Assembly: GCA_945875845.1 (NCBI GenBank)
Contig: CAMCMB010000049.1
Location: forward strand, 1-53,373
Length of the DNA stretch: 53,373 nucleotides
Reading direction: 5' to 3'
Source of the DNA: Pirellula staleyi DSM 6068
GTDB taxonomy: Bacteria > Planctomycetota > Planctomycetia > Pirellulales > Pirellulaceae
Position 1 is the stretch's first letter. The number at the start of each line of letters is the position of its first letter. Made by a program: the position numbers and the translations under genes. The notes under the pieces are model-generated. The model did no database searches, was not told the origin of the DNA, and worked only from the letters and a program-made list of their open reading frames with translations. Below, piece after piece: positions 11,552-37,971 of the stretch.

Positions 11552-11552
11552 A

Positions 11553-11637
11553 GTGGCGTAAGCTTCCAGCTTGCGTGCGTATAAAAACACAGGCTGGAAG
11601 CCTATGCCACTAAAGTGGCGTAAGCTTCCAGCTTGCG
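11553..11637. repeat. Dispersed palindromic repeat, three copies
   Basis: GTGGCGTAAGCTTCCAGCTT (extended by GCG) occurs at 11553-11575 and 11615-11637, with an inverted, slightly diverged copy between them (about 11590-11610). A perfect inverted pair of the same 23-bp unit lies at 39239-39294, nearly 28 kb away, so this is a dispersed intergenic element rather than a local structure. Confidence 0.85.
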
Positions 11638-11652
11638 AGGATAAAAAATTCG

Positions 11653-14790: not shown

Positions 14791-14959
14791 TTCGGACGGA
14801 CAGTCAGTCGGAAATGGTTCCAGTTGGAGAAAAACTGGTTATGATGGAGCGATCGACAGGAATTTGCCCCTGCGGCAGTGCCTCTTTTCGATCGGTTTTC
14901 CAAAGACTGCCTGCCCGATTTGTCCTCCTACCGCTAACTCCGAATCGTTTGGTTTCTCC

Positions 14960-17044
14960 ATGCGTTCCAAAGCAATATTGATAGCGATTTCCATGCCTTG
15001 GCTGCTCCTGCCTGCTAGTCACGCGATCGCTCAGTTGCCTTCCCCTGAGCTGAATGCCCTGGGGCAACTTGGTGGTCAAATCGACCAGCCAATCGTGCCT
15101 TTGGACAAAGCCACTGGGCAAAACCTCGCTGAAAGCGTGCCACGCTTTTCCTCCAGCGCGATCAAGGATGGCAAAATCCCAGGCGATACGCCGCCGGGCG
15201 TGGTTCAAGTGAGAGCCCAGAACTCGCTTGGGCTTTCCAACTCGAGAAATTTCCTTTTAACTTCTCAACCTTGGACGATCGTAACGGGCAATGAATCCTA
15301 TGCGACGGCCGCTGGTATTTCACTCGATGGGATGTTTCAGGATGAATGCCCAGAGCGAGGTCGCAACTACTACCGACTCAAGTTGGATCGCGACCAAAAC
15401 ATCGAGATCGAATCCTTTGCTCATTCACTCGATTCACGTGCTCAATTGAATCTGTCCATTCTGACCTCCAGCACGACCAAGATCGCCTTTGCGAATGCGA
15501 CCAATGATCGAGATGCAGTGCTTCGGTGCAAGCTTTTGGCGAACACGGAATACACGCTTGTTGTTCACGATCATTTGTATCGAGGCGGTCCGGACTATCG
15601 CTACGCCATTTGCGTTAAGTCCGTTAGCGACGATCTTCTTTTAAACCGTTCTACTGGCAAGTCAGCAAGTGCACGTTGGCGAGAACTGTGCAGCCAAATT
15701 GCGATGGTTCAATCGAGCACCGAGCCTCACAAGCTGATCAATCCTCAGTACTTGCACCCACGTTGCTCCTTGGTTCGACCTCCTGTGGTCGATAAAGCGC
15801 CGACGGTACACGAAGAAGGTTCAACGCCCAATGCCGTGGCAGTAACCGTCGAATTCCCGACTTTGATCGACGGAGTCTTTGACGCCAATGACGATGTGGA
15901 TCTGTTCGATTTCGATTGCGAAAAGGATGCGAACGTCGTCATTGAAGTCGTGTCTCAGCGAGTTGGCCAATTGACCGATAGCGCGATTGTTGTCTATCGA
16001 GTTGAAAATCCAAAGTTGCCAAACGAAAAATTGAATCGCTTGGCCGAGAATGATGACCTTCCCGCAACCGGAAATGGCGAAATGCGTTTTGCCAACAAGG
16101 ACTCCATTTTGGCTTTCAAAGCACCGGAAAAAGGTACCTATCGACTGGCCGTTCGGAACCAGCAAAACTCGGATCGACTAGCGACACCACCTCGATATGC
16201 TGTTGAAATTCGACAGCCCACGCCTGGATTCGTGTTGGCATGCCATTGGTCTTGTCCGGTGCGCGATCTGGATCAAGCTCGTATGACAACCAACACCATC
16301 AACCTAGGTGGCTCCGCATTTCTAGGCGTCCATGCTTTGCGGTTTGATGGATTCAACGCACCTATCGAACTGACGGTGAGCGGCTTGCCTGTAGATCTTC
16401 GCGGCGGAACGGGTGTCATCGCGATGGATCAGAATTCCGCCACGTTGAGTTTGTGGCATGATGAGAAAGGCTCGGCACCGGCAACCTCCGAACCCGTCGT
16501 ATCATTGAATGTTGCCGGTCAATCCAAAGTCGGCGAACAGACGCTGAGTTCATTGGCGACTCCAGTGGAAGTGATTTGGGGTTTGATCGATACGTTTCGA
16601 TCTCCTATCGCCCGAATAACCACGGAACTGCAGTGCATTCGATCCGCTTCTCGCACCTGCCCCGTCACGATCGAACTCGGACCAGTCGCAGCAAACCCCG
16701 GCGAGCCGATCGTCATGAGCGGTATCCGTGGACAACCGCTTAAGGTTCCCATTCGAATCACGCGCCGAGAAGGTGGCCAAGAGTCGGTCGTGTTGGTGCG
16801 CTTGCGTCAGACGCCGACCAAGACAACTGCCGCAGAAGTCAAACTCGAAGCGAAATCGACCGAAGGAACGCTTGAGCTTCAAATCCCAAAAGATGCACCC
16901 ATCGGTGAGTATTTGCTCAGTACTTTGTGCGAAGCTCCCGTAACCATTCCCAACTTAGATCCTGCGGCCAAAGACAAAACAACCAAAATTACCTTGCAAT
17001 TGCCTAGTTCTTGCATTCGCTTGCGAATCGGAGATGCTCCCTGA
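14960..17044 (+). CDS. Secreted protein with PPC-like domains, unknown function
   Basis: About 694 residues from the ATG at 14960, chosen because it begins a clean signal peptide (MRSKAILIAISMPWLLLPAS, cut near AIAQ); the frame is open further upstream but that part lacks such features. Two regions look like bacterial pre-peptidase C-terminal (PPC) beta-sandwiches: around residues 100-220 (GRNYYRLKLDRDQNIEIESFAHSL, RLAQLNLSIL-like strands, EYTLVVHDHLYRGGPDYRY) and around 285-430 (DGVFDANDDVDLFDFDCEKDANVVIEV, GTYRLAVRNQQNS). No peptidase motif is present, so this is not itself a protease by sequence. It overlaps nothing and is followed after only 2 bases by the cytochrome/WD40 gene, so the two are probably co-transcribed and may act together at the cell surface. 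Confidence 0.6.
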   Translation: MRSKAILIAISMPWLLLPASHAIAQLPSPELNALGQLGGQIDQPIVPLDKATGQNLAESVPRFSSSAIKDGKIPGDTPPGVVQVRAQNSLGLSNSRNFLLTSQPWTIVTGNESYATAAGISLDGMFQDECPERGRNYYRLKLDRDQNIEIESFAHSLDSRAQLNLSILTSSTTKIAFANATNDRDAVLRCKLLANTEYTLVVHDHLYRGGPDYRYAICVKSVSDDLLLNRSTGKSASARWRELCSQIAMVQSSTEPHKLINPQYLHPRCSLVRPPVVDKAPTVHEEGSTPNAVAVTVEFPTLIDGVFDANDDVDLFDFDCEKDANVVIEVVSQRVGQLTDSAIVVYRVENPKLPNEKLNRLAENDDLPATGNGEMRFANKDSILAFKAPEKGTYRLAVRNQQNSDRLATPPRYAVEIRQPTPGFVLACHWSCPVRDLDQARMTTNTINLGGSAFLGVHALRFDGFNAPIELTVSGLPVDLRGGTGVIAMDQNSATLSLWHDEKGSAPATSEPVVSLNVAGQSKVGEQTLSSLATPVEVIWGLIDTFRSPIARITTELQCIRSASRTCPVTIELGPVAANPGEPIVMSGIRGQPLKVPIRITRREGGQESVVLVRLRQTPTKTTAAEVKLEAKSTEGTLELQIPKDAPIGEYLLSTLCEAPVTIPNLDPAAKDKTTKITLQLPSSCIRLRIGDAP

Positions 17045-17046
17045 AT

Positions 17047-19827
17047 ATGAACAACAATCTCAATCTCAATCTCAATTGTCTCGCAACTCGCAGTCTCCAC
17101 TGCGTCCTATGCTTCGTCATGGCCCTCGCGGCATGCGGTACGCTTGGCGCTCAGACGCCGATCTACTTTGAAGATGCCGTTGCTCCCATTCTTAGAAAAA
17201 ACTGTATCGCTTGTCACAATGTCAAGCTTACCGAGGGTGGACTCAATCTTGAGACTCCCGCGAACATCATGAAGGGAGGTGACACCGGCTCGTCCATCGA
17301 TAAAGCCAACATCGACATGAGTCTATTGATCAAGCGTGCCACGGAAACCGAAGACCCCATGCCTCCCGCAGACAATACCGTCGGTGCGGAAAAACTGACG
17401 ATGGAACAACTCAACATCATTAAAGCATGGATTGCCGGTGGGGCTTTGTCCAAAGGGACAGCCGGCGGAATGCCAGCGCTTATCCTGCGTCTTCCAGAGA
17501 CTGCGAAGGCGAGTTACGCACTGGCGGTCTCGCGCGACAATGACTTCGTCGCGTTCGGGCGAGGTGGACAATTGATCATCCATAATGCTCGGCGACTGGC
17601 CTTTGCCCAAAGCGTTGAAGGCATGATGAGTTCGACACCCACTCAAGTCGTAGCGAACGCTCATCCCGACTTCATCCACTCGATTGCTATCAGCGAGGAC
17701 GGAGAGCGGATCGCAACGGGCAGTACGGGTCAAGTCAAAATCTGGAAGCACGTACCCAACTCGATCGAGTCGTCACGTGTTGCTCTTGAAACAGCCGGGG
17801 TTCCCCTTTCCAACCTGCTGTGTACTTCGGCGGATGGCAAGCTACTTGCAACCGTTAAGAAACGAGCCCAAGCTCCAAGCGACCCAGCTACCGAAAAAGC
17901 TCCCGGTTCTACCATTCCCGGTATCCTCACGATGCTAAATCGAAGCGGAGAGGTAGTCTATTCCATCGAGGTGGCGGATGCGTCTTTGGTACATGGCACT
18001 TGGTCTCCCTCAAACCAACGCTTCTTTGCCATTGGTACCAACAACATGCTTTATTCTTGGGATCTGCAAGCAATGCCAATTGCCCCACCCACTGCTTCGC
18101 AATTACCGACCGCGATTCAATCGCTTGACTCGATGGACGAAACGACCCTCCTCACGATTTCTGAGCGGAAAATTTCCGTTTGGAAATACAACACACCCGC
18201 CGCAGCGGAGAACGTACCTGCACATCCGCTAGTTGTCGCGATCAACGCAGCTGGCCCAATCGATCTTGCCAATGTTTCCCCTGATCGAACCAAACTTATT
18301 GTGGCAACTCAAGTGGATGCGACCAAGAACACGGCGCTCAAGCTTTGGAACATTCCTGCCGCAAAGCTTGTGGGAACCATCGAACGAGATCGAAAAAGTC
18401 AACTCGCCTTTTTGAATGCGGATCGTATCGTGCGTCGCGCACAAGGGGCAGTCGACCGATCGAATGCGAGTGTGGCGGAATTTGAGAAAGCGATTACTAC
18501 GGAAACGGCGGCGGTCACCGCGGCGAAAGCCGCCAAAGACAAAGCGGCCGAGGCATTAGCCAAGAAAGAGCAAGAACGAGTGGCCGCAGTTCAAGTCGTC
18601 GCAGATCACGAAAAAACCATGGTGGAAGCAAAAGCAGCTATCGAGGCGGCCACCTTGAAGCTAACGCAGTTAACGACGGAGCTTGAGCCAAAAAAGAAAA
18701 TGGCGGCCGACCTAGAAAAACAGAAGAAAGATTCTCAAGCAGCCATGGACAATGCCGCTCAGTCGGTGGCCGCAACGGAGGAGACGCTCAAAGCCGCACA
18801 AGTGCGACTGGAGTCACGAAAGCAATTAGTTACCAAAGAGTCCGAGGAATTGGCAGCCGTTAAGACCAAGAGTGAAGGCCTCAAATCCCAATCCGAGATG
18901 GTTGCGTTTTCCGCTCGCACGATTGCATTCGCAGACGCGAATACGATCGCTGCCGTTCGGAACGCTGCTACGCCAAATAGTAACGAACCTAGTGTTATCG
19001 ATTTGTTTTCCGCAGAAACCCTGGAACGTATCGACACTCAATCGGTTTCCACTTCCATTGATTCCAGCGCGGCCTTGATGGCTCCTATTTCCAACTCAAC
19101 CATAGACGGAATTTGGCAGCAGGAGCGACTGATCGATTCCGCAAAACTAATTGTGGACAGAGTGACGGCGTTAGCCTTTAGCCCAGACGGATCGAAACTT
19201 GCGATGGGAAGCGGGCTTCCAAGTCGCAGCGGTCAACTCGCCATCGTGAATGTGAATGACGGCTCTCCCATCCCCTTGCCATCGGATTCCGCAGCGACTG
19301 CAATGGGTGATACAGTGGATCTGCATAGCGATACGATTCTTGGCCTAAGTTATTCCCCCGACGGACGGTGGCTGGCTAGTTGCGGAGCAGACAAAATGAC
19401 GAAACTGATAGATACTTCTAACAACAAGGTAGTAAAAATATTTGAGGGTCACACGCATCATGTTTTGGCTCTGGCATGGCAAGATAGCGGGCATCGGTTG
19501 GCGACCGCAAGCGCCGACTCGACAGTGAAGATTTGGGACATTGAACGCGGTGAATCCATACGCACTGTCACCGGCTTTGGAACCGAGGTGACAGCTCTGG
19601 CTTTTATTGGAACCACCGAAAACATTGTTTCGTCGACGATGAACAATTTGGTTCGGATGCATGAATCGGGCTCGGGCAAACAAGTCAAACAGTTCAGCCC
19701 AGCGGGCGACTCTCTTTACGGTGTTGCCACAACTCCCAACGGAAAATATGTTCTATCGGTGGGTCAAGAAGGCATTGTTCGAACGTGGCTGATTGAGGAT
19801 GGACGCTTGGTCGGTGAATGGAAATAG
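17047..19827 (+). CDS. Secreted c-type cytochrome / coiled-coil / WD40 protein
   Basis: About 926 residues from the ATG at 17047. A signal region leads to a Planctomycete cytochrome C domain, YFEDAVAPILRKNCIACHNVKL with CxxCH at residues 53-57 and the typical GGLNLET and PPADN segments. Beta-propeller repeats follow (HSIAISEDGERIATGSTGQVKIW), interrupted at about residues 465-625 by a long Ala/Lys/Glu-rich coiled coil (AAVTAAKAAKDKAAEALAKK and following). The WD40 repeats then resume (VTALAFSPDGSKLAMGSG, ILGLSYSPDGRWLASCGADK, VLALAWQDSGHRLATASADS). The split propeller with a coiled coil between its halves is the notable feature. Its codons 2-8 come from a short tandem CTCAAT repeat. Function unknown; the heme suggests electron transfer or redox sensing in the periplasm. 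Confidence 0.85.
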   Translation: MNNNLNLNLNCLATRSLHCVLCFVMALAACGTLGAQTPIYFEDAVAPILRKNCIACHNVKLTEGGLNLETPANIMKGGDTGSSIDKANIDMSLLIKRATETEDPMPPADNTVGAEKLTMEQLNIIKAWIAGGALSKGTAGGMPALILRLPETAKASYALAVSRDNDFVAFGRGGQLIIHNARRLAFAQSVEGMMSSTPTQVVANAHPDFIHSIAISEDGERIATGSTGQVKIWKHVPNSIESSRVALETAGVPLSNLLCTSADGKLLATVKKRAQAPSDPATEKAPGSTIPGILTMLNRSGEVVYSIEVADASLVHGTWSPSNQRFFAIGTNNMLYSWDLQAMPIAPPTASQLPTAIQSLDSMDETTLLTISERKISVWKYNTPAAAENVPAHPLVVAINAAGPIDLANVSPDRTKLIVATQVDATKNTALKLWNIPAAKLVGTIERDRKSQLAFLNADRIVRRAQGAVDRSNASVAEFEKAITTETAAVTAAKAAKDKAAEALAKKEQERVAAVQVVADHEKTMVEAKAAIEAATLKLTQLTTELEPKKKMAADLEKQKKDSQAAMDNAAQSVAATEETLKAAQVRLESRKQLVTKESEELAAVKTKSEGLKSQSEMVAFSARTIAFADANTIAAVRNAATPNSNEPSVIDLFSAETLERIDTQSVSTSIDSSAALMAPISNSTIDGIWQQERLIDSAKLIVDRVTALAFSPDGSKLAMGSGLPSRSGQLAIVNVNDGSPIPLPSDSAATAMGDTVDLHSDTILGLSYSPDGRWLASCGADKMTKLIDTSNNKVVKIFEGHTHHVLALAWQDSGHRLATASADSTVKIWDIERGESIRTVTGFGTEVTALAFIGTTENIVSSTMNNLVRMHESGSGKQVKQFSPAGDSLYGVATTPNGKYVLSVGQEGIVRTWLIEDGRLVGEWK

Positions 19828-25151: not shown

Positions 25152-26111
25152 ATGGATTTAATCAGGTCAAAAGCTAAAGAGATCCTTCACTCTAATCGCG
25201 GCAACTTGGAATACCTGGAACACTGTCGGGTTTTGGTCAAGGATGGGCGAGTACTGTATCTTCGCGCAAAAGACGACACAAATGTCGAATGCTACTGGAA
25301 TATTCCAATTGCCAATACAACCGTAGTGTTAATGGGATCAGGTACTTCCATTACTCAGGCTGCGGTTCGGATGCTTGCGGACGCAGGGGTTCTGATTGGA
25401 TTCTGCGGAACAGGGGGAACACCACTCATTGTTGGATCCGACGTGGAGTTTTTGACGCCACAATCTGAGTATCGACCTACGGAGTACATCCAAGGATGGC
25501 TTAAATTTTGGTTCGACGATGCTAAGCGTCTCAAGATCGCGAAATATTTCCAGGAAGCGAGAATTCAGTTCATTCGGTCGGTTTGGGAAAAAGAGAAAGT
25601 ATACATCGAGCATGGACTCGATGTCGCAGATCGTGAACCCCAGCAGTCGTTTGAAAAATACCTACTGTCCTCTCAGTCCGCAAACGAAGTAATGCATCTT
25701 TTGACAGCCGAGGGAAGGCTTACGAAAGAGCTTTACAAATATGTCGCGAATAACGTTGGTATCCAAGAATTCTGTCGTGATACGACTTCGTTGGACAAAC
25801 CGAACCAATTCCTCAATCACGGAAACTATTTAGCATACGGACTGGCAGCAACTTGCCTCTGGTGTTTAGGGATACCTCATGGTTTTGCCGTCATGCATGG
25901 TAAGACTCGGCGAGGTGCATTAGTTTTTGACGTTGCAGATCTCATTAAGGATGCCGTCGTTCTTCCTCAAGCATTCATATCCGCTTCCTACGATGTGTCG
26001 GAAAAGGAATTTCGGGAATCCTGCTTAGAACGATTTTTAAAACATAAAGTACTTGATCGCATGTTTGAGGTCGTCAAGGATGCAGTCATGATCGGAGCTA
26101 GTCTGAAGTGA
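25152..26111 (+). CDS. cas1: Type I-F CRISPR integrase Cas1
   Basis: Cas1 inserts new spacers at the leader end of the array, working as a complex with Cas2-3. The 319-residue protein matches the I-F subtype closely: YLEHCRVLVKDGRV, YWNIPIANTTVVLMGSGTSITQAA, LTPQSEYRPTEYIQGW, LNHGNYLAYGLAATCLWCLG. The metal-binding residues are in place: Glu187 in LLTAEGRL, His249 in AVMHGKTRRG and Asp260/Asp263 in FDVADLIKD. The start ATG at 25152 aligns with the family's N-terminus, though its ribosome site is weak. The stop overlaps the start of cas2-3 (GTGA at 26108-26111), so the two are translationally coupled. The type I-F system is mostly known from Gammaproteobacteria, so its presence here suggests transfer. 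Confidence 0.96.
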   Translation: MDLIRSKAKEILHSNRGNLEYLEHCRVLVKDGRVLYLRAKDDTNVECYWNIPIANTTVVLMGSGTSITQAAVRMLADAGVLIGFCGTGGTPLIVGSDVEFLTPQSEYRPTEYIQGWLKFWFDDAKRLKIAKYFQEARIQFIRSVWEKEKVYIEHGLDVADREPQQSFEKYLLSSQSANEVMHLLTAEGRLTKELYKYVANNVGIQEFCRDTTSLDKPNQFLNHGNYLAYGLAATCLWCLGIPHGFAVMHGKTRRGALVFDVADLIKDAVVLPQAFISASYDVSEKEFRESCLERFLKHKVLDRMFEVVKDAVMIGASLK

Positions 26112-29100
26112 TTGTTACTTTTGTCTCCGAGTGCCACAAAAACTCTCTTAAACTTACTCGCAAGGTCCTTGACGCATATGCTCATCGTATTGGCCAACGC
26201 ACATGGCAAACAGTCATAACGGAAAAGGGGCTTCAAGCCATTCGAGAACGACTATCGAGCACCGCTAGAAAGACTACTGCTGTGGCCTGCCATAGACTGC
26301 ACGGTACACGGCGAAGTGAACTTTTGTGGGTCGTTGGAAACCGAGAGGTGTTTGACGAGACAGGGAATATACCTGTGCACTACACCACGCGCGATCTACT
26401 TGATAAGGACACGAGCAACGATTGGCTTTACCTTGAAACATTGAAGTGTATTGTGGCCATGGCTTCGTTGTTTCACGACTTTGGGAAAGCCTGGATTCCC
26501 TTCCAAAACAACCTAGAACCGAAGAACGGCAAGAATAAGACTCCGCTTGATCCTTGGCGACACGAATGGGTTTCCATGTTGCTCTTCATTGCGTTCGTTG
26601 ATCAGCAATCCGATGAGCAATGGACAGATTGCCTACACGATCTGCATGAGCGAACGTTGGATGAGCGTAAAAGGTTGTCAGATTTGGTCATCGAAAAGGC
26701 GAAATTATTGGTCGAACAACCTAGACCTATGATGGCGGCAAAGTCACCGCTCGTGAGTTGGATTGCGTGGTTAATTGTTTCACACCATCGGCTTCCTAAA
26801 AGCCTGGAGGGAGTCGAAACACAAATGCATGAGCAGGATGTTTGGAATGAAATACAGGTCACTGATGATTATGTCAAAACCAGCGCAGAGAAATTCGATT
26901 CAAAAAAGCATTGGGTTTTCGAATCTTCACTTCCGTTTTGTTCAACGTCGTGGTGCCAATCAGCATCCCGTTGGGGACGAAAATTACGGGCCGAATTGAA
27001 CCATCCGACAGAATCCAAAATCACCAGAGTGGAGCCATGCCAACGACTGCTGCTTACGTTGGGCCGAATGCTTTTGATGCAAGGGGACCATGAATACTCT
27101 TCGAGAGACGAGTATCCCAATTGGAATTCGGACTACGACCCATATGCAAATACGTACTCGCGACCTGCGCAAGTCAATTCCGAGAGGCGATTAAAAGGGG
27201 ATAAGAAGCAACGTCTCGATGAGCATCTCGTGAAGGTTACCGAATTTGCGGTAAAGCTCACTCATCGGCTACCAGCCTTCGAACGATTTTTACCCACGGT
27301 CCAGTCCTTACGTCCCTTGAGAAAGCCCAGCAAGGGTTCTAAGTTTGCTTGGCAGAATCGTGTGGTCCAAGAAGTTCGTAAATATCGTGATGAACATCGG
27401 ACGGGCGAAATCGGATTTTTCGCGGTGAACATGGCCAGTACCGGCATGGGTAAGACCCTTGCGAACGCAAAAATCATGGACGCGTTAAATCGTGATGGAC
27501 TAAGATTTTCATTGCTCCTTGGACTTCGGACACTGACGTTACAAACGGGCGATGAATACCAATCGCGTTTAGGACTAGATCGCAGTGAACTGGCCGTTTT
27601 GATCGGTTCTGCAGCAATCCGCGATTTACACGAACTTCACAAGAAAGAGTCTTCCGTTGCGGATATTAACTATCAGCATCGAATGGATGACTCTGGTTCT
27701 GAATCAGAACGTAGTATAAGCGATGGCTTTGAATTTGCGTTTGATGACCTAGTACCTCCAGACACGATAACGACGGTACTTAGCAATGCGAAAAGCAAGC
27801 AATTACTCAAGTCACCAATTTTAGTCTGCACGATCGATCACCTTATGCCAGCCGTTGAAAGCTGTCGCGGCGGCACGCAAATTCTACCGATGCTACGTAT
27901 GATCTCTTCGGACATCGTGATCGACGAAGTAGATGACTTTTCAGAACAAGACATGCCAGCCATCGCTCGCTTGGTACACCTTGCAGGGATGCTCGGTCGC
28001 AAAGTCATGATTTCCTCAGCCACTATCCCACCCGCAGTCGCCAATGGACTCTTTATGGCGTATAAGGCCGGTTTTGCTCAATTTGCGGAATTCCGAGGAC
28101 GTAAACCGGAGATTTCTGCTCTTTGGGTTGACGAATACTCCGCAAAGATTCATGACGTATCCATTGAGCGACAATTCAATGATCAACATCAGATGTTTGT
28201 CGAGAAGCGAGCGAAGAAACTTGCGCAGGTTGAGCCAGCACCGCGAAAGGCCTCTATTATCACGATGCCTTCGATGACGACCATCGCTACCGAGACAAAC
28301 GATTCCCAGCAAACTATTTGGTTCCAAGCGCTGCTGGATTCCGTTATCGCATGTCATCGAAATCATATCATGATCGACGCGCCGACCAAAAAGCAATGGT
28401 CAGTAGGAGTCGTTCGTTTCGCGAATGTCGATCCTTGCATCGACTTCTCGAGATTCGCGATGCAGTGCAAGCTACCAGAGGATGTCGATTTACGAATACT
28501 CACTTACCATGCAAGACAAGTTCTCTTTGTACGGTCGAAACAGGAAGCGTATCTTGATCAACTCTTAAATCGCAAGGGGGATCGGTGTCCGTCGGTAGAT
28601 CCTCTCGTTCGCAACCATCTTTTCGGTACGACCAAACCCAACATGATTTTTTTGGTCGCAGCCAGCCCCGTTGTCGAGGTTGGCCGTGATCACGATTACG
28701 ATTGGGCAGTCATGGAGCCGTCCTCCTATCGTTCTATAATCCAAATGGCGGGTCGAGTTCGCCGTCATCGGGAGGCAATGCCCACGGACAGCAAGCCGAA
28801 CGTTGCTATCGCTCAATTCAATCGGTTGGCATTTACTTCCAATCAAGAAGTCGTCTTTACCAGACCAGGCTTTGAGACTAATCGAATGATCCTTCGGTCC
28901 AAAAGTATGTTTGACCTAGTGGATACCGAATTAATAGGCTCCCGACTTGATGCCTCCGCTAGGATTGTGGCTCCAGACCCCTTAAGACCCACCGAGAAAT
29001 TAGCGGACCTCGAACATGCAGTGCTCGGGCAAGTTCTCGATCCTCAGTCTGCATCCCCTAAATCACTTGGTGGCTGGATCAACGGCGGCTTCTATCTGAC

Positions 29101-29440
29101 GGACTACTGCCAACGAGAATCGGGGTTTCGTTCATCGATCGCAACAGACACATACAACCTGTTTCCGATTCCGGATGATGAACTACGATTCTGCGAATTT
29201 GATGCGAAAACGGGGAGATTCGTAGCCAGTTCCACAGTTAAGGTCGGGTCGGTTACCAGTGAACAACGGGATCGACTATGGCTCGAAATAGACTGCCAAA
29301 ACGAGATTGAGAGACTTGCAGAGCGATTGGGCGAATCCATAAATCAAATTTGCGAAAAGTTTGGCTCCATCGAGCTGCGATCGGATTGTGGGCGAATCCC
29401 ATTTGAGTGGAGCCCTGAAACCGGTGCTCGCAGCGTTTAA
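26108..29440 (+). CDS. cas2-3: Type I-F Cas2-Cas3 fusion, nuclease-helicase
   Basis: In type I-F systems Cas2 is fused to the front of Cas3; this 1110-residue protein shows the same. Residues 1-90 are the Cas2-like domain (IVTFVSECHKNSLKLTRKVL, QTVITEKGLQAI, HGTRRSELLWVVGN). The HD nuclease motif is at 122-126 (LFHDFGKAW, His123/Asp124). The SF2 helicase has Walker A ASTGMGKT (443-450), Walker B/DExD DEVD (606-609), SSATIPPAV and the arginine-rich motif QMAGRVRRHR. It would degrade DNA marked by the Csy complex and also assist Cas1 in spacer capture. The GTG start at 26108 overlaps the cas1 stop. No frameshift is seen, so it should be active. Confidence 0.96.
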   Translation: MIVTFVSECHKNSLKLTRKVLDAYAHRIGQRTWQTVITEKGLQAIRERLSSTARKTTAVACHRLHGTRRSELLWVVGNREVFDETGNIPVHYTTRDLLDKDTSNDWLYLETLKCIVAMASLFHDFGKAWIPFQNNLEPKNGKNKTPLDPWRHEWVSMLLFIAFVDQQSDEQWTDCLHDLHERTLDERKRLSDLVIEKAKLLVEQPRPMMAAKSPLVSWIAWLIVSHHRLPKSLEGVETQMHEQDVWNEIQVTDDYVKTSAEKFDSKKHWVFESSLPFCSTSWCQSASRWGRKLRAELNHPTESKITRVEPCQRLLLTLGRMLLMQGDHEYSSRDEYPNWNSDYDPYANTYSRPAQVNSERRLKGDKKQRLDEHLVKVTEFAVKLTHRLPAFERFLPTVQSLRPLRKPSKGSKFAWQNRVVQEVRKYRDEHRTGEIGFFAVNMASTGMGKTLANAKIMDALNRDGLRFSLLLGLRTLTLQTGDEYQSRLGLDRSELAVLIGSAAIRDLHELHKKESSVADINYQHRMDDSGSESERSISDGFEFAFDDLVPPDTITTVLSNAKSKQLLKSPILVCTIDHLMPAVESCRGGTQILPMLRMISSDIVIDEVDDFSEQDMPAIARLVHLAGMLGRKVMISSATIPPAVANGLFMAYKAGFAQFAEFRGRKPEISALWVDEYSAKIHDVSIERQFNDQHQMFVEKRAKKLAQVEPAPRKASIITMPSMTTIATETNDSQQTIWFQALLDSVIACHRNHIMIDAPTKKQWSVGVVRFANVDPCIDFSRFAMQCKLPEDVDLRILTYHARQVLFVRSKQEAYLDQLLNRKGDRCPSVDPLVRNHLFGTTKPNMIFLVAASPVVEVGRDHDYDWAVMEPSSYRSIIQMAGRVRRHREAMPTDSKPNVAIAQFNRLAFTSNQEVVFTRPGFETNRMILRSKSMFDLVDTELIGSRLDASARIVAPDPLRPTEKLADLEHAVLGQVLDPQSASPKSLGGWINGGFYLTDYCQRESGFRSSIATDTYNLFPIPDDELRFCEFDAKTGRFVASSTVKVGSVTSEQRDRLWLEIDCQNEIERLAERLGESINQICEKFGSIELRSDCGRIPFEWSPETGARSV

Positions 29441-29458
29441 CCAATAAAACTAAAAAGG
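29439..29458 (-). promoter_or_regulatory. Predicted self-target (protospacer plus CC PAM) of the mini-CRISPR RNA
   Basis: On the minus strand, CC at 29458-29457 is followed by TTTTTAGTTTTATTGGTT (29456-29439). The spacer-like segment of the mini-CRISPR begins TTTTTTGTTTTTTTGGTT (29537-29554). They agree at 16 of 18 positions, the exceptions being 6 and 12. CC directly 5' of the protospacer is the type I-F PAM. The PAM directly adjoins the -35 box TTGACA (29459-29464), so a bound Csy complex would cover the promoter. Beyond position 18 the match ends. This was found by hand alignment; the tract is T-rich, so chance matching must be assessed. Confidence 0.7.
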
Positions 29459-29486
29459 TTGACAGAACGTTTGGATTCGCTATCAT
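29459..29486 (+). promoter_or_regulatory. Strong sigma70-like promoter for the mini-CRISPR and csy operon
   Basis: TTGACA (29459-29464), a 16-bp spacer and TATCAT (29481-29486) are a near-consensus sigma70 promoter in the gap after cas2-3. Transcription should start near 29493, about 16 bases before the first repeat-like element and about 120 bases before csy1. It means the effector genes can be expressed separately from cas1/cas2-3. The predicted crRNA-like target site abuts the -35 box. Confidence 0.7.
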
Positions 29487-29508
29487 GTTGAAGTCGCCAA
29501 AAATTCAA

Positions 29509-29586
29509 AGGAGATGCCGTGCAGGCAGCTTAGAAGTTTTTTGTTTTTTTGGTTGTCAAAATCTCCACTGCCGTACAAGCAGAAAC
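29509..29586 (+). ncRNA. Mini-CRISPR with two degenerate repeats and one spacer-like segment: candidate CreR-type Cas-regulating RNA
   Basis: Two elements resemble the array repeat. The first (29509-29536) has TGCCGTGCAGGCAGCTTAGA and keeps the 3' handle almost unchanged (CTTAGAAG against CTTAGAAA) and a TGCC/GGCA stem, while its first six bases have diverged. The second (29563-29586) has CACTGCCGTACAAGCAG, keeps most of the hairpin, and has lost the handle. Between them is a 26-nt segment (29537-29562), shorter than the usual 32. Processing by Cas6f would give a short crRNA-like RNA with a normal 5' handle. Its spacer pairs with the promoter just upstream (see the target feature). Known analogues are Cas-regulating RNAs that guide their own effector to repress cas promoters, described in some other type I and type V systems. 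Alternative: hairpin plus T tract acting as attenuator or terminator. Confidence 0.7.
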
Positions 29587-29611
29587 GCAACAAATCCTTA
29601 GGAGATCTCTC

Positions 29612-30859
29612 GTGACAAATCCAATTGAAGACTTCCTGAATTCGCGAAGAATTCTTCGCGAAAAGAAACCAGGAGAACGCAACGCGGAACAGATCCAATC
29701 GGAGTTTTCGCTTCCGAATTGGTTAGAGTCGGCTGCGATGCGAGCCAGTCAACTAAGTTTGGTAACTCATCCGGGAAAATTTTCCCATCCTGACGTCGAT
29801 GTTGCCAGTATACGAGCTAGCCCGAGAGCGGAAGCAGACGGATTTTTGCGATCGGGAAACGTAACAGATGTACCCTTCGACGTACTCGGTAATGCTGCAG
29901 CACTGGATGTATACGCATTCCTTTCCCTGGTGATGGAGGATGGAAGAACAGTTCTTGAGCATTTCGAAGCAAGCAGCACTGTACTTCAAAATCTCCTGCA
30001 AGTTGACGACGAAATATTTGGTCGATGGCGCGAAGGGCTGCTTAAGATTAAAGAAGATCAACGCGAACTTCGCTCCGACGGGAAAGCAAAGCAGGTGTAT
30101 TTCCCTATTTTTTCTGATGCAACGGATCCCCAGTACCACCTTCTAACAATCCTAACTGCTTCAGGAATCGTGAATGTCAATCGTGATCGAATTCGGGATT
30201 CGAAGTTTTCAGATGAAGTAAAACAAGCCAGAGAGAATCGAAAGAATAACCAGCTGGATCCGAAAGGTTACGACGATTTTTCGGGATTGTTGATCATGAA
30301 ATTCGGTGGAAGCCAACCTCAAAATGTCAGCCGACTCAATAGTACGAATACCGGCCAAGCGTATCTCTTTTCGAGCCTGCCACCGCTATTGGATGACTCC
30401 TATATCGCGAAGCCAAAACGAGATTTTTTCAAAGAGTTGCGTTGGAACGTAGAGCTCAAGGAATACTTCTCATCCATGCATCAATTGCTTGCGCAAGACT
30501 ACAACAACGTCAATATCCGTGACGGAATGAGGTATTGGCGGCAGCAAATCTGCGATTGGGTCTTTGAACGTGCCAGTATCCTGCAGAGCTTAGATCCAGA
30601 ATGGACAACATCCGAGACGAATCACCTGCCAATCATCCAAAAGCGATGGCTTGATCCCAAACGGGACTGGGATGACTCGGTAATCGAACTCGATGAGTGG
30701 CATAACGAGATCGTTCGAATGATTGTGGTTTGGATGGTATCGACCTATCGCCGAATGTTTAAGGCGAAAGGAGTCGTCCTTTTGGGAGAGGTGCATGAAG
30801 TCGTTTTTGCTTCGGAACTCTCAGAGTACATCGCGTCGAACTATTGGAGTCAATCATGA
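29612..30859 (+). CDS. csy1: Type I-F Csy complex large subunit Csy1 (Cas8f)
   Basis: Csy1 (Cas8f) sits at the foot of the crRNA complex, holds the 5' handle with Csy2 and reads the CC PAM. I start it at GTG 29612, because AGGAGA lies at 29600-29605 with good spacing and because the 415-residue product (MTNPIEDFLNSRRILRE...) then has the expected length. The frame is open up to 29549, but that stretch is the second mini-CRISPR repeat. Family features: WLESAAMRASQLSLVTHPGKFSHPD, an ISTD-like KQVYFPIFSDATDPQYHLLTIL segment, LLIMKFGGSQPQNVSRLNS and YLFSSLPP. The stop overlaps csy2 (ATGA at 30856-30859). It is the first gene of the csy operon, driven by the promoter at 29459-29486. Confidence 0.93.
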   Translation: MTNPIEDFLNSRRILREKKPGERNAEQIQSEFSLPNWLESAAMRASQLSLVTHPGKFSHPDVDVASIRASPRAEADGFLRSGNVTDVPFDVLGNAAALDVYAFLSLVMEDGRTVLEHFEASSTVLQNLLQVDDEIFGRWREGLLKIKEDQRELRSDGKAKQVYFPIFSDATDPQYHLLTILTASGIVNVNRDRIRDSKFSDEVKQARENRKNNQLDPKGYDDFSGLLIMKFGGSQPQNVSRLNSTNTGQAYLFSSLPPLLDDSYIAKPKRDFFKELRWNVELKEYFSSMHQLLAQDYNNVNIRDGMRYWRQQICDWVFERASILQSLDPEWTTSETNHLPIIQKRWLDPKRDWDDSVIELDEWHNEIVRMIVVWMVSTYRRMFKAKGVVLLGEVHEVVFASELSEYIASNYWSQS

Positions 30860-31701
30860 GTCAAGTCTTGATCATTCGGAAACTTCAGGTGCAAGGTGCA
30901 AACGCAATTTCCAGCCCCTTTACCTACGGTTTTCCTGCCGTCACTGCATTTCTTGGGTTTGGACATGCGCTTCAACGGCATTTCAATTCGTCAGTCGAAC
31001 AACCACGATTGAACGTGCGCGGCGTCGGGATCATCAGCCACAAAGTTCAAATGCTTGACGAATCTATTGGATATAACCGACTGCTTAAACTGACGGGCAA
31101 CCCGTTGAACGAACATGGAGAACGCTCATCCTTCGTCGAGGAGGGGCGTTGCCACATGACTGTCAGTTTGGTTCTGGAAGTAGATGGATTGACTCGAGGG
31201 ACGATAGACACCGAATTAATGCAGGACGTCATTCTTTCACGAATGAAGCTCGCAGGTGGTGATATCCTCACCAAGCCTGATATCCAGCTAATTGGGCAGG
31301 ACAAGCCGTTTGCCTCCCTGGTGATGCCTGGGTACGCGCTGATGGAACGCCGCTCGTTAATCGCGGATTCCATGAAAGAAGGGGCGGACGCATTAACGGC
31401 GATCCATCGGTATGTAGCCATCCAAAACAGAAGCCAAATTAGTACAGATGGATCTGTGGTCTGGTCTCGCAAACGAGAGAAGGCAGGCTGGCTTGTACCC
31501 ATTGCGACAGGCTTTCACGCCATTTCCGAGATACAGCACCCAAAAAACACGCGTGAGCCGGATACTCCGCACCGTTTTGCGGAAAGCGTTGTAACGCTCG
31601 GTGAGTTTGTATTGGCCAGTCGCATCAAACGACTCTCCGAAATCCTTTGGCGATATCAACATAGTCAAGATCTTTATCTCTGCGTGCAATCCGCAAGTTG
31701 A
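30856..31701 (+). CDS. csy2: Type I-F Csy complex subunit Csy2 (Cas5f)
   Basis: Csy2 pairs with Csy1 to cap the 5' handle of the crRNA. The 281-residue product starts MSQVLIIRKLQVQGANAISSPFTYGFPAVTAF, which corresponds to the family's conserved opening ('LRIQNANAIS-PLTWGFPAPSAFLGF-HAL'). Later motifs are RCHMTVSLVLEV, GGDILTKPDIQLIG and FHAISEIQHPKNTREP. I choose the ATG at 30856 over the in-frame TTG at 30844: it overlaps the csy1 stop by four bases and has GGAG at 30846-30849. It ends 82 bases before csy3. Confidence 0.93.
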   Translation: MSQVLIIRKLQVQGANAISSPFTYGFPAVTAFLGFGHALQRHFNSSVEQPRLNVRGVGIISHKVQMLDESIGYNRLLKLTGNPLNEHGERSSFVEEGRCHMTVSLVLEVDGLTRGTIDTELMQDVILSRMKLAGGDILTKPDIQLIGQDKPFASLVMPGYALMERRSLIADSMKEGADALTAIHRYVAIQNRSQISTDGSVVWSRKREKAGWLVPIATGFHAISEIQHPKNTREPDTPHRFAESVVTLGEFVLASRIKRLSEILWRYQHSQDLYLCVQSAS

Positions 31702-31783
31702 GAGTGTCCAAGTCCACGTCGAAAGGGTTTCTAATCGACGCAGTTTCCGTTTTCCTTTGTTCAATCCAAGAGGAGCTAGTTCT

Positions 31784-32809
31784 ATGGCAAAAAAAGTTGA
31801 AGTTGATCCTTTTCCGTCCGTGTTGGCTTTTGAGAAAAAGCTTGTTCCGTCTGACGGTCGAATGTTTGCCGCCAAGTTCGCCGATCGCGGTTCAAATGAG
31901 GTGCCACTACGACTACACGAGAAATCCGTGCGGGGAACGATTTCAAACCGACTGTCTAGCAAGCAGGAGAATGACCCGGCCAAGATAGATGCGGAAGTCG
32001 AAAAGGCCAACTTGCAAACAGTTGATAGTTGTTCCCTCCCGGCAGGCTACGATACGTTGAAACTGCAATTCACCTTGAAAGTACTTTGCGGTGTTCAGGA
32101 ACCGTGTGCCTGCAATGTAGCCAGTTTCCAAGTAACATGCCGTGATGCGGTCAATGACTATATTTCGAGAACTAGCTTCCAAGAGCTTGCTAATCGGTAT
32201 GCAACGAACCTTGCCAATGGGCGTTTCCTTTGGCGAAACCGCGTGGGTGCCGAGCAGGTTCGAGTCGTAATCTCGGTCGAAGAGGCAAAAGCTTCTGACA
32301 AAAAAACGGTCTATGATTTCGATGCGTACGAATTCGATTTGCGGTCATTCGACAACAAATCAACTAAGCTAAAAGAGTTGGCCGACCTTATTGCTGTAAC
32401 ACTTTCGGGAAAGAGACCTTCCATTCTCCTTGATGTGGTTGCGTATGCTCAAATGGGTGAAGGTCAAGACGTTTATCCGAGCGAAGAACTTGTTTCGGAA
32501 AAGGGGGATAAAAAAAGTAAGTTTCTTTATTCTGTTGACGGTATCGCCGCGATGCATTCGCAAAAACTTGGTAACGCGATCCGAACCATTGATACTTGGT
32601 ACATGAATAAAGCGGAACGTCCGATTGCGATTGAGGCGTATGGATCCGTGACCAACTTAGGCGTCGCCTATCGCAAGCCGAGAGACAAAACGGACTTCTA
32701 TACTCTTTTCGACCAATTCGGTTGTGGTACGAAAATAGAACCGAACGAAGAGCATTATGTGATGGCGATGTTGGTTCGCGGTGGCGTTTTTGGAAAGAGT
32801 AGCAAATGA
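31784..32809 (+). CDS. csy3: Type I-F Csy complex backbone subunit Csy3 (Cas7f)
   Basis: Six copies of Csy3 usually form the helical backbone along the crRNA spacer, displacing every sixth crRNA base, which is why mismatches at spacer positions 6, 12 and so on are tolerated. The 341-residue product starts at ATG 31784 (AGAGGAG site at 31769-31775). It carries the family motifs SVLAFEKKLVPSDGRMF, REKSVRGTISNRL-type LHEKSVRGTISNRLSSKQ, ANLQTVDSCSLPAGYDTLKL, LANGRFLWRNRVGAEQVRV and the C-terminal GNAIRTIDTWYMNKAERPIA and DFYTLFDQ. The frame is open back to 31601 over csy2, but the ribosome site and family alignment fix the start. It overlaps cas6f by ATGA (32806-32809). Confidence 0.94.
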   Translation: MAKKVEVDPFPSVLAFEKKLVPSDGRMFAAKFADRGSNEVPLRLHEKSVRGTISNRLSSKQENDPAKIDAEVEKANLQTVDSCSLPAGYDTLKLQFTLKVLCGVQEPCACNVASFQVTCRDAVNDYISRTSFQELANRYATNLANGRFLWRNRVGAEQVRVVISVEEAKASDKKTVYDFDAYEFDLRSFDNKSTKLKELADLIAVTLSGKRPSILLDVVAYAQMGEGQDVYPSEELVSEKGDKKSKFLYSVDGIAAMHSQKLGNAIRTIDTWYMNKAERPIAIEAYGSVTNLGVAYRKPRDKTDFYTLFDQFGCGTKIEPNEEHYVMAMLVRGGVFGKSSK

Positions 32810-33489
32810 ATACAGCAACAAAAACGGTAACTCAAACGTCAACTTACTTTCATCAGGACATCGTTTGCTTGGAAAGTGAGTCGATCAGTACCGGAGCGCT
32901 GATGAGCCGTATATTTGCAAGCCTTCATTTCGCCTTCGTCGAGATCACAGGTGACGATCCCGTTTGTCCGATTGGGATAACCTTTCCGGGTTATCAATTG
33001 TTCGGACGCCAATCTGAGCGTCAATCTGACAAAGCTGAGCGATCCGAACAAGTGAATTTACCTCAGATAGGCAATTCGATAAGACTGTTTTCGGTGGTCG
33101 AAGGGGAACTGGAGATGCTAGATCTTGCACGACGACTTTTGCGATTTCGAGAGTATCTCGCTATCGAGACAATAAGGTCATTGCGTCGCAAAAATTATGG
33201 CTTAGCTCTCTATCGTCGCCATCAACCCAAATCGACACCGGAACGATTAATTCGTCGACGTATGAAGCGTCACAGCGAATCGTACGACGTTGCATCAGCG
33301 CACTATCGATCGATGATTACCGAACCTACCAGTCTTCCGTACTTGGATGTGCAAAGCCAAAGCACTCATGGGCGATTTCGTTTGTTTATCGAAAAACGGC
33401 TTTGTGAAGAAGTGAGCAGCGACAAAGAACGGACATGGGGCTTTAGCTGCTACGGTTTGTCGACCAATGTGTTGCTTCCAGATTTCTAA
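32806..33489 (+). CDS. cas6f: Type I-F crRNA endonuclease Cas6f (Csy4)
   Basis: Cas6f cuts the precursor CRISPR RNA just 3' of the repeat hairpin and stays bound to it. The 227-residue protein has the candidate catalytic histidine at 41 (LMSRIFASLHFAFV, corresponding to His29 of the Pseudomonas enzyme), an arginine-rich helix RLIRRRMKRH that would enter the hairpin groove, and the C-terminal strands LPYLDVQSQSTHGRFRLFIEK and TWGFSCYGLSTN. It is longer than the usual about 187 residues: an extra charged segment (about residues 66-100) and an N-terminal extension explain the difference. It shares ATGA with csy3. The CRISPR leader follows. Confidence 0.93.
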   Translation: MNTATKTVTQTSTYFHQDIVCLESESISTGALMSRIFASLHFAFVEITGDDPVCPIGITFPGYQLFGRQSERQSDKAERSEQVNLPQIGNSIRLFSVVEGELEMLDLARRLLRFREYLAIETIRSLRRKNYGLALYRRHQPKSTPERLIRRRMKRHSESYDVASAHYRSMITEPTSLPYLDVQSQSTHGRFRLFIEKRLCEEVSSDKERTWGFSCYGLSTNVLLPDF

Positions 33490-33739: not shown

Positions 33740-36700
33740 CTTCCCTGCCGCACAGGCAGCTTAGAAAAGCCATCTGGCCCGTATCGCATTGCTACATTGC
33801 TTCCCTGCCGCACAGGCAGCTTAGAAAGATTGGGTTAGCCGAGTGCCCAATTTCGGTTGCTTCCCTGCCGCACAGGCAGCTTAGAAATCTATAACTAGCC
33901 CTGGATCGCCCGAGCCAACCTTCCCTGCCGCACAGGCAGCTTAGAAAAAGTCAACTAAGATTCGCGTATTGTACCCTTTCTTCCCTGCCGCACAGGCAGC
34001 TTAGAAAGACCTACGCGGTGCCAAACTACGCTACGCCGACTTCCCTGCCGCACAGGCAGCTTAGAAAGACCCGCCCGCAAGATCGCCGCTAGGCAATCCC
34101 TTCCCTGCCGCACAGGCAGCTTAGAAACTAGCGTTAGGCGTACTAACCCCAGCGACCAACCTTCCCTGCCGCACAGGCAGCTTAGAAATTGATTGATCAT
34201 CGAAGCTAAGCAAGCCCCGCCTTCCCTGCCGCACAGGCAGCTTAGAAAACTGAGCCGTCCATTGCGTCCGTTATGTATGCCTTCCCTGCCGCACAGGCAG
34301 CTTAGAAAAAGCGTTACGCGTGCGTACTGCTTGATTGTTCCCTTCCCTGCCGCACAGGCAGCTTAGAAAGTTGCCCGCAAAAATGGATGGAACGCTGCTG
34401 ACTTCCCTGCCGCACAGGCAGCTTAGAAAAGCATAGGCCGCCGGAAAACCGGCATAGATTCCTTCCCTGCCGCACAGGCAGCTTAGAAATCTCCGATCGA
34501 CAAAAAAAGGAACTGCTCATTCTTCCCTGCCGCACAGGCAGCTTAGAAAGCGTAATAAAGAGGGGATGCAAACCGGGCCTGCTTCCCTGCCGCACAGGCA
34601 GCTTAGAAATCCCACCGTTGGCGACCTCTTCTTGAGCAAGCCTTCCCTGCCGCACAGGCAGCTTAGAAAAAGTCGAGGGAAAGGCGCGGGCCATCACGTT
34701 TCTTCCCTGCCGCACAGGCAGCTTAGAAAGTAAAGGCCAACCGCCTCAACTTCGCGTACAACTTCCCTGCCGCACAGGCAGCTTAGAAATCTCAAGAGAT
34801 GCCCGATTGCGACGTGAAAGTCTTCCCTGCCGCACAGGCAGCTTAGAAATAACAGGTGGCACCATTTCGAGCCTAGTGTACCTTCCCTGCCGCACAGGCA
34901 GCTTAGAAAACGCTCAGATAACTGCGACGTGCGACGGTCGCCTTCCCTGCCGCACAGGCAGCTTAGAAAGGCTGCGAGTGATCCGCGAGACTGCTGATCG
35001 CCTTCCCTGCCGCACAGGCAGCTTAGAAAAACTTTGTCACCCCGACAGACGTAACGCCAATCTTCCCTGCCGCACAGGCAGCTTAGAAAAGGTCGACGCG
35101 GCCGTTGGATGCGAACGTGATCTTCCCTGCCGCACAGGCAGCTTAGAAATTGCGTCGCTTGTGAGGCGATCGAACACCGACCTTCCCTGCCGCACAGGCA
35201 GCTTAGAAAAACGACGCTGACGAATGCGATGCGATCGGCGTCTTCCCTGCCGCACAGGCAGCTTAGAAAGCCAAATGGAGACGCAAATGGTTAAGCGTCT
35301 CTTCCCTGCCGCACAGGCAGCTTAGAAAGGCCGAACGATCCGAACCGACAGCCAGAGAGGCTTCCCTGCCGCACAGGCAGCTTAGAAATATCCGGCAAGC
35401 AAGGCCCATGCCCCAAGTGCCTTCCCTGCCGCACAGGCAGCTTAGAAATGAAGTTGGCGATAAACACGCAACATCTCTTTCTTCCCTGCCGCACAGGCAG
35501 CTTAGAAAGTTGCTGCGTGGAGGGAGCATAGTGGCACCGCCTTCCCTGCCGCACAGGCAGCTTAGAAAATGTTCTTCTATCTCCTTTCGTTTCTGCTCTT
35601 CTTCCCTGCCGCACAGGCAGCTTAGAAAGACCTAAGCAAAGCCAACCTACGCGGTGCCAACCTTCCCTGCCGCACAGGCAGCTTAGAAAACACGGTCGTG
35701 AAGCCAACATAGCTTATTGAATCTTCCCTGCCGCACAGGCAGCTTAGAAATCGCAAATCAGGCATACCTAGTTGCCTACGCCCTTCCCTGCCGCACAGGC
35801 AGCTTAGAAAGAACGCAAAAGCTGCTTTACCGAACAACATTGCTTCCCTGCCGCACAGGCAGCTTAGAAAGTTCGGTCATCAATGGTCAATCATCGATTC
35901 GACTTCCCTGCCGCACAGGCAGCTTAGAAAAGACGGATGAACGCCAATGGGGAATGAGCTTGCCTTCCCTGCCGCACAGGCAGCTTAGAAAAAACGCATG
36001 CGGCCACTTATCCCACTTAACCCCTTCCCTGCCGCACAGGCAGCTTAGAAATCAAACGCTACCGGTTGAACATTTGGACCAACCTTCCCTGCCGCACAGG
36101 CAGCTTAGAAAATCCAAGCGGAAAGACTCAGTCCGGCAGCGCCCTTCCCTGCCGCACAGGCAGCTTAGAAAAACCTAAGCGGTGCCGACCTAAGCTACGC
36201 CGACTTCCCTGCCGCACAGGCAGCTTAGAAAGCTTAGGTTGGTGCCGCTTAGGTCGGCGTAGCCTTCCCTGCCGCACAGGCAGCTTAGAAAGGTGCTTGC
36301 GTCCGTGTCCGCTGGCTTATCGACTTCCCTGCCGCACAGGCAGCTTAGAAAAATGGCACGGTGTTAGGTCACCTGGACTTGCACTTCCCTGCCGCACAGG
36401 CAGCTTAGAAAGAACAAGCCGATCCGACCCGAGAGCGATTTCGCTTCCCTGCCGCACAGGCAGCTTAGAAATGACCAATGTTTTACTGCTGGCGAAAGTC
36501 AGCCTTCCCTGCCGCACAGGCAGCTTAGAAAACGTAAGGCCCGTAGCGTCGCTGCATGATCGCCTTCCCTGCCGCACAGGCAGCTTAGAAAGCATCGGTG
36601 GCAACGCATGTGCTGGGCTGGTACTTCCCTGCCGCACAGGCAGCTTAGAAACAATCCATTCCGACGCCATTCGCCCACTGGAGCTTCCCTGCCGCACAGG

Positions 36701-37971
36701 CAGCTTAGAAAGAGAATCCAAGCAGCATAAAGAGCGGGATTGTCTTCCCTGCCGCACAGGCAGCTTAGAAAGAAAATACTCCGACCTCAATATCTGGCAT
36801 GTTCTTCCCTGCCGCACAGGCAGCTTAGAAATGGATAGGAGAGTGCTGCCTGAATGAAATTCGCTTCCCTGCCGCACAGGCAGCTTAGAAATGGTTGAGA
36901 CGTTCCAAACTCTCCATCTGGTACTTCCCTGCCGCACAGGCAGCTTAGAAATCGACAATCCCGCCCGAGTTGCGTTTGATCTCCTTCCCTGCCGCACAGG
37001 CAGCTTAGAAAATGAAACGAAGGACAAGAGAGTTCAACGAGTTCTTCCCTGCCGCACAGGCAGCTTAGAAAACGCCACGCCAACCTACGCGGTGCCAAAC
37101 TACCTTCCCTGCCGCACAGGCAGCTTAGAAAGGTTGCTACATTAAGTGATGTTGAAGCATCAGCTTCCCTGCCGCACAGGCAGCTTAGAAAGGTCATAAA
37201 CTGTCATTCGAGTAATGACATGCCTTCCCTGCCGCACAGGCAGCTTAGAAATCAGCTAGCAAAAAAGATTGCGGAACAAGTAGCTTCCCTGCCGCACAGG
37301 CAGCTTAGAAAAAGCGGGTCAAGAGATCCTCCCTCAGTTGCATCTTCCCTGCCGCACAGGCAGCTTAGAAATCTTGATCCTCCCGGTTACGCGTTCGCCA
37401 TTCCTTCCCTGCCGCACAGGCAGCTTAGAAAATGCCAACCTAAGCTACGCCGACCTACGCCACCTTCCCTGCCGCACAGGCAGCTTAGAAAACTTGTTAG
37501 GGGCAATCGATTCGTTAGTGATCCTTCCCTGCCGCACAGGCAGCTTAGAAATTGGGAGCCGCGATTGTGAAAACGGAATTTGTCTTCCCTGCCGCACAGG
37601 CAGCTTAGAAAAAATCACCCGATGGAAGATCGAAGATACAGCCCTTCCCTGCCGCACAGGCAGCTTAGAAAAATCGGCAAGTGCTTTTTCCGATTCGGCA
37701 ACACTTCCCTGCCGCACAGGCAGCTTAGAAAATGCCATTGGTCAGCAGATAACCGTTGCTGCGCTTCCCTGCCGCACAGGCAGCTTAGAAATAGGCACGC
37801 CCGAGCAACCCGCGTATGTCGTCCTTCCCTGCCGCACAGGCAGCTTAGAAAACAAACGTGCATCGGACTGTGGCGCAGTGTTCCTTCCCTGCCGCACAGG
37901 CAGCTTAGAAAACGCGTCCCCATCACCGACGAGAGACGCCGAACTTCCCTGCCGCACCGGCAGCTTAGAAA
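33740..37971 (+). CRISPR. Type I-F CRISPR array, 71 repeats and 70 spacers
   Basis: The 28-base repeat contains TGCCGCACAGGCAGCTTAG (positions 7-25 of the repeat), with the I-F stem CTGCC/GGCAG and the 3' handle CTTAGAAA. Repeats start every 60 bases, with five 61-base and one 59-base units; hence 64 spacers of 32 nt, five of 33 and one of 31. All repeats I checked are identical except the last (37944-37971), where CACAGG reads CACCGG, marking it as the old, distal end. Six spacers (34008, 35629, 36172, 36232, 37072, 37432) encode pentapeptide-repeat motifs. Translations of the array in any frame give a repeated LPCRTGSLE-like peptide, which is an artefact of the repeat. Confidence 0.99.

Follow-up and report, generated by a model that had tools for sequence, protein, structure and literature searches.

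The primary paper on CreR, the cas-regulating RNA, is reportedly that of Liu et al. (2023, Cell Host Microbe). CreR is named in subtypes I-B, I-E, and V-A in the excerpted text of one source (PMC13131331), and the available part of another places it more generally in type I and V-A (PMC12737573). Within type I-F, a CreTA module has been published from Acinetobacter sp. WCHA45, where it lies in the gap between cas3 and csy1 and includes a 33-bp mini-ORF behind a Shine–Dalgarno motif; inspection of cas3–csy1 gaps gave the same authors 19 further I-F modules (PMC10097628, in excerpt). An Acinetobacter I-F guide with a 20-nt spacer, mismatches at positions 6, 11, and 18, and a CC PAM repressed transcription approximately 7–8-fold, according to the same excerpts (PMC10097628). 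Complexes of I-F1 with spacers of 14–176 nt bind, whereas Cas2/3 is triggered only by R-loops of at least wild-type length, as far as the excerpted source describes (PMC7296934).

Type I-F locus and its mini-CRISPR

The window, by which we mean the whole stretch of 53,373 nucleotides from Pirellula staleyi DSM 6068 that was analyzed, contains a type I-F locus on the + strand, in which cas1, cas2-3, csy1, csy2, csy3, and csy4 are followed by a CRISPR array. All six genes scored above their respective NCBIfam cut-offs: cas1 and cas2-3 (25152–29440; TIGR03637 and TIGR02562), csy1 (29612–30859; TIGR02564, 212.6 bits), and csy2, csy3, and csy4 (30844–33489; TIGR02565, TIGR02566, and TIGR02563). Csy4 matched its family over its full length, and its residues 137–225 matched the solved Csy4. 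The array (33740–37971) comprises 71 repeats and 70 spacers. Elsewhere in the window, four big reading frames (1236, 1045, 754, and 938 amino acids) lie on one strand at 7841–19827. The gap between cas2-3 and csy1 is 171 nt, and this gap, together with the end of cas2-3, contains a target site, a near-consensus promoter, a first degenerate repeat (psiR1), a 26-nt spacer-like segment (psiS), a second degenerate repeat (psiR2), and the csy1 ribosome site.

This repeat–spacer–repeat mini-CRISPR sits close to the cas genes and is not part of the array. The sequence-only reading had described it as two degenerate repeat copies around a 26-nt spacer, and its coordinates proved correct on re-checking. 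On the + strand, psiR1 (29509–29536) forms a hairpin and ends in the 5′ handle CTTAGAAG (29529–29536), psiS occupies 29537–29562, and psiR2 (29563–29582) forms a weak hairpin ending at 29582, where the 3′ terminus of the guide is predicted; when aligned over 28 columns, each psiR agrees with the array repeat at 19. Judging from this anatomy, Csy4 cuts would leave a mature guide RNA of 54 nt (29529–29582). The csy promoter (29459–29486, + strand), consisting of TTGACA (29459–29464) and TATCAT (29481–29486) separated by 16 nt, agrees with the consensus at 11 of 12 positions and was the one promoter-like site found in 29300–29720. The target of psiS is on the minus strand at 29439–29456, with pairing positions 1–18 counted from 29456 downward, and the match to it is partial. 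It is flanked by a CC PAM (29457–29458; GG on the + strand) that directly abuts TTGACA, the −35 box of the csy promoter, as had been noticed from the sequence.

The predicted folding energies were −8.2 kcal/mol for the psiR1 hairpin, −3.7 kcal/mol for psiR2, and −8.6 kcal/mol for the array repeat, so processing may be weak. The weak fold of psiR2 counts against a CreR-type reading, as do two further observations: both psiR hairpins contain one mismatched pair, and the predicted guide alone folded no better than shuffled sequences. Rfam, searched with 29300–29700, returned nothing at E-values up to 1. The interval from cas2-3 to csy1 showed no terminator-like site, and part of the csy transcript could therefore come from read-through.

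Match between psiS and the csy promoter site

Re-scoring gave the same 16 of 18 agreements between psiS and its target that the sequence-only reading had counted, with mismatches at positions 6 and 12 only. In type I guides, every sixth base is flipped out and unpaired, and once positions 6, 12, and 18 are left out, the match is 15/15. Among the 6513 CC-preceded sites on both strands of the window, the second-best score was 11/15, and the 70 array spacers reached at most 10/15 against the csy1-upstream region. The shuffled-sequence test suggested earlier was run with psiS held fixed and dinucleotides preserved, using 20,000 shuffles each of 29401–29528 and 29401–29611. The maximum was 13/15, reached once in the former set and twice in the latter; T-richness therefore fails as an explanation. 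In a search of the genome (7.0 Mb) with positions 6 and 12 left free and CC required, the csy-promoter site was the sole exact match. These results confirm that the match of psiS to the csy-promoter site is genuine and greatly exceeds chance expectation.

One other genomic site also matches psiS at 15/15 (G000:C9:96814-96833, L094), but TC replaces CC there. This site falls within a short open frame resembling a small membrane protein. Its existence counts against the uniqueness of the promoter match and against a CreR-type reading; the TC-flanked match is probably due to chance.

Recurrence across related loci

We examined 83 csy1-upstream regions, comprising 80 loci (the best 80 of 165 relatives, picked by Csy1 similarity to the window), two further Pirellulaceae (G491 and G474), and the window itself; one locus (L102), which is the same as L011, was left out before counting. 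In a search anchored on the handle, run on the 81 regions that were long enough (L036, which is short, and L044 were left out), 27 upstream regions scored at least 12/15. Under the same search, none of 391 coding regions from these loci did so (maximum 11), and one of 81 reversed regions did. Two loci whose handle differs at two of its eight bases (L012 and L109) were added, giving 29 carriers; the partial case of Thiolinea disciformis (L017, 11/15) was not included. Because the sample was chosen by Csy1 similarity to the window, 29/83 is not a frequency for type I-F at large. A pair search without handles was rejected as too permissive, since the best scores of the other loci were mostly 10–14 and arose from other kinds of inverted repeats, and it is the handle anchoring that separates carriers from non-carriers.

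The carriers have differing spacers, each paired with a CC-flanked site of its own that in most cases lies next to the csy promoter. Spacer–target pairing has thus been maintained across related loci (29/83, against 0/391 in the coding controls), and the comparison of homologous I-F loci proposed in the sequence-only reading was strongly positive. For 24 loci, the psiR pair was picked by geometry and handle, blind to targets; with any PAM allowed, the best site was CC-flanked in all 24 and scored at least 13/15 in 23, the remaining one being L017 with 11. When spacers were cross-paired with the targets of other loci, 8 of 552 pairings reached at least 13/15, all within the groups L019/L020, L021/L061, and L072/L077/L089. 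The L019 and L020 targets are identical, and over the 18 nt their psiS sequences differ at position 6 alone. The csy leaders of L072, L077, and L089 share a GTGTCATCGTTAAT-like stretch after the csy promoter.

Most carriers are proteobacterial, and the unit is not specific to planctomycetes. Carriers were found in Legionella, Vibrio, Methylobacter, Colwellia, Desulfocapsa, Desulfuromusa, Parendozoicomonas, Shewanella, Methyloprofundus, Methylovulum, Methylomonas, Oceanisphaera, Amphritea, Methylotenera, Endozoicomonas, Fangia, and Crenothrix, as well as in one bin labeled Neomarinimicrobiota and two Pirellulaceae (the window and G474). Against the CreR-type reading, the unit was absent from the cas3–csy1 gaps of the congeneric L010 (an uncultured Pirellula; 75-nt gap) and of G491 (103-nt gap). 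Rubripirellula obstinata (L011) also counts against it: an intact handle and a psiR2-like repeat stand before csy1 from 9924 onward, with no matching target. The best CC-flanked site for its psiS over the 21-kb locus scored 10/15 in the expected register and 11/15 when shifted by two; a 12/15 upstream site without CC simply mirrors the near-palindromic psiS, and L011 was not counted as a carrier. This unit looks as if it were decaying.

The mismatches themselves follow a phase. Over 28 loci (L020 was left out as a near copy of L019), 16 mismatches fell at position 6, 14 at position 12, and 21 at position 18, whereas the other 13 positions up to 15 together had 12 mismatches in 364; positions 16 and 17 had 5 and 7, respectively. 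On 23 loci, the excess at positions 6 and 12 relative to the remaining positions through 17 gave a Fisher p of 5e-13, which serves only as a guide because the loci are related. This sixth-base spacing of the mismatches shows that natural selection reads the register of Csy pairing.

Position and orientation of the unit

The PAM-proximal end of the target lies 36–114 nt upstream of the csy1 start in 24 of the 29 carriers, which leaves little room for another gene. TTGA begins 0–2 nt after the PAM complement in 18 of the 29 carriers, compared with 20 of 257 GGs in the same regions (targets included). In all carriers but L054 and L084 (27 of 29), the protospacer lies on the minus strand, and the target site of L109 overlaps a possible promoter. 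In a Methylotenera metagenome-assembled genome (L080), the targeted promoter is 339 nt upstream of csy1, with a short frame in between.

The unit was present in 27 of the 30 measured loci with a cas3–csy1 gap of at least 150 nt (L011, L030, and L079 lack it) and in none of the 40 with a shorter gap; this threshold was set post hoc, and 13 loci, including the carriers L045 and L061, had no measurable gap. The gaps counted here may overlap with those of the 19 CreTA modules cited above. Twenty-six of the 29 carriers have the mini-CRISPR divergent from csy1, and three have it on the csy strand, namely the window, where it is in the csy leader, L012, and L109; the same orientation is seen in the partial case L017. 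A guide within the repressed transcript is accordingly uncommon (3/29), which counts against the CreR-type reading.

Predicted autorepression of csy1–4 and alternative readings

The best reading of this locus is CreR-type autorepression of csy1–4, which we consider likely. The sequence-only reading had reached the same interpretation, and the co-varying spacers and targets lend it support, with the function itself predicted. From this anatomy we infer processing, binding, and repression along the following lines. The csy promoter would produce a leader carrying psiR1–psiS–psiR2, followed by csy1–4; Csy4 would cleave at both hairpins to release a short crRNA-like RNA; and the Csy proteins with this guide would bind the CC-flanked site immediately upstream of the −35 box, thereby hindering RNA polymerase. 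With no more than 18 nt matched, the R-loop is expected to fall short of the length that recruits Cas2-3, and repression would occur without cutting. Repression would be eased when array crRNAs fill the Csy proteins or when an anti-CRISPR disables them, as suggested by what reviews say of CreR. If this is true, a csy-repressing guide titrated by array crRNAs would explain how effector and guides are balanced in I-F cells, and it would give these cells a response at the level of transcription to anti-CRISPRs, a large number of which target I-F. With the unit recurring in 29 of the 83 regions, these predictions lend themselves to direct tests in common laboratory species.

We considered and rejected a translational switch operated by Csy4 cutting, in which AATCTCC immediately before psiR2 can pair with the csy1 Shine–Dalgarno motif. 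The predicted accessibility of this motif in the window fell from 0.32 uncut to 0.16 cut, which is ordinary in comparison with 200 shuffled leaders; the corresponding values rose from 0.34 to 0.55 in L012 and from 0.58 to 0.62 in L109, within the range of their own shuffles. A candidate leader peptide is encoded by a 33-codon frame from ATG 29514 to TGA 29615, which overlaps the csy1 start, but the Shine–Dalgarno motif of this frame abuts the ATG.

Because CreTA sits in the corresponding gap of Acinetobacter, a toxin module must be weighed, although space for one in the window is scant. In a CreTA module, the repressed transcript would start with a small toxin (an RNA or a peptide), the crRNA-like RNA would act as the antitoxin, and the cell would be dependent on Csy. 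The published module with its mini-ORF and the 19 further ones (PMC10097628, as excerpted) give this reading a precedent, and in the window a Shine–Dalgarno motif precedes a 4-codon frame (GTG 29519 to TAG 29533), just as L012 has, after its targeted promoter and ahead of its mini-CRISPR, a 23-codon frame with a well-spaced Shine–Dalgarno motif, at −151 to −79 before csy1. However, the motif of the frame from ATG 29514 touches its start, frames in the window leader with a properly spaced Shine–Dalgarno motif are all at most 4 codons long, a measure to which a toxic RNA would be invisible, and no divergent mini-ORF of approximately 33 bp was found there, only the 4-codon frame on the mini-CRISPR's own strand. 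Repression would in any case fall on csy1–4, because only one promoter-like site was found before csy1, and the short distance from target to csy1 in 24 of the 29 carriers also argues against a toxin gene. We therefore regard a toxin module as unlikely. The L012 frame ends inside psiR1 and could be a leader peptide or creT-like. In L017, a promoter-adjacent CC site (11/15) and the mini-CRISPR are separated by a frame of approximately 46 codons that resembles a small membrane protein; this frame is possibly a toxin or an extra operon member.

It is quite improbable that the unit is a decaying relic of a former csy-regulating mini-CRISPR that has lost its processing. The degenerate repeats with weakened hairpins would fit such a history, as would the absence or decay of the unit in L010, G491, and L011, but psiS and its target agree at every one of the 15 pairing positions, the PAM and promoter are intact, and repeat degeneration is common among working CreTA units, according to the available part of PMC9458426. 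An accidental inverted repeat formed by an A-rich element ahead of the −35 box and the T-rich leader, against which the sequence-only reading had cautioned, is scarcely credible: psiS is indeed T-rich and its target is located where an UP element would be, but dinucleotide-preserving shuffles stopped at 13/15, loci with unrelated spacers again show the handle, CC, and mismatch phase, and spacers hardly ever matched the targets of other loci (8/552).

Comparison with known systems

In scaRNA, as predicted for the window, a partial-match guide turns a nuclease into a transcriptional repressor; unlike the window, scaRNA works with a class 2 effector, and its target is a lipoprotein operon rather than cas genes. 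The scaRNA of Francisella novicida Cas9 is mentioned in the available part of PMC9458426. The I-F CreTA of Acinetobacter sp. WCHA45, as far as the excerpts of PMC10097628 describe it, resembles the window in subtype, in its place in the cas3–csy1 gap, in its psiR1–psiS–psiR2 order, in its CC PAM, and in having a short spacer that is mismatched at, or close to, every sixth base. Its target lies downstream of the toxin promoter, and its mini-ORF is divergent from creA (PMC10097628, in excerpt), whereas in the window the target is immediately next to the csy promoter and the search for a comparable mini-ORF found none. Most carriers are called CreR here because the target sits at the csy promoter.

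As described in the excerpted parts of PMC12737573, PMC12948488, and PMC13131331, CreR shares with the window a mini-CRISPR beside the cas genes, a crRNA-like RNA with a limited match to a cas promoter, and predicted autorepression that senses crRNAs and anti-CRISPRs. In the literature searched, mostly without subscription papers and without the primary CreR paper, we recognized no report of CreR in type I-F. The window differs from the CreR of those excerpts in that it is type I-F and carries its guide inside the csy mRNA leader. On balance, we lean toward the view that CreR-type autorepression is widespread in I-F and so far undescribed for this subtype, with a sizeable cas3–csy1 gap as its usual mark, and that the window represents a forward form, in which the guide would come from the leader of its own effector's mRNA, so that each csy transcript would yield one repressor guide and the strength of the feedback would be set by Csy4 activity.
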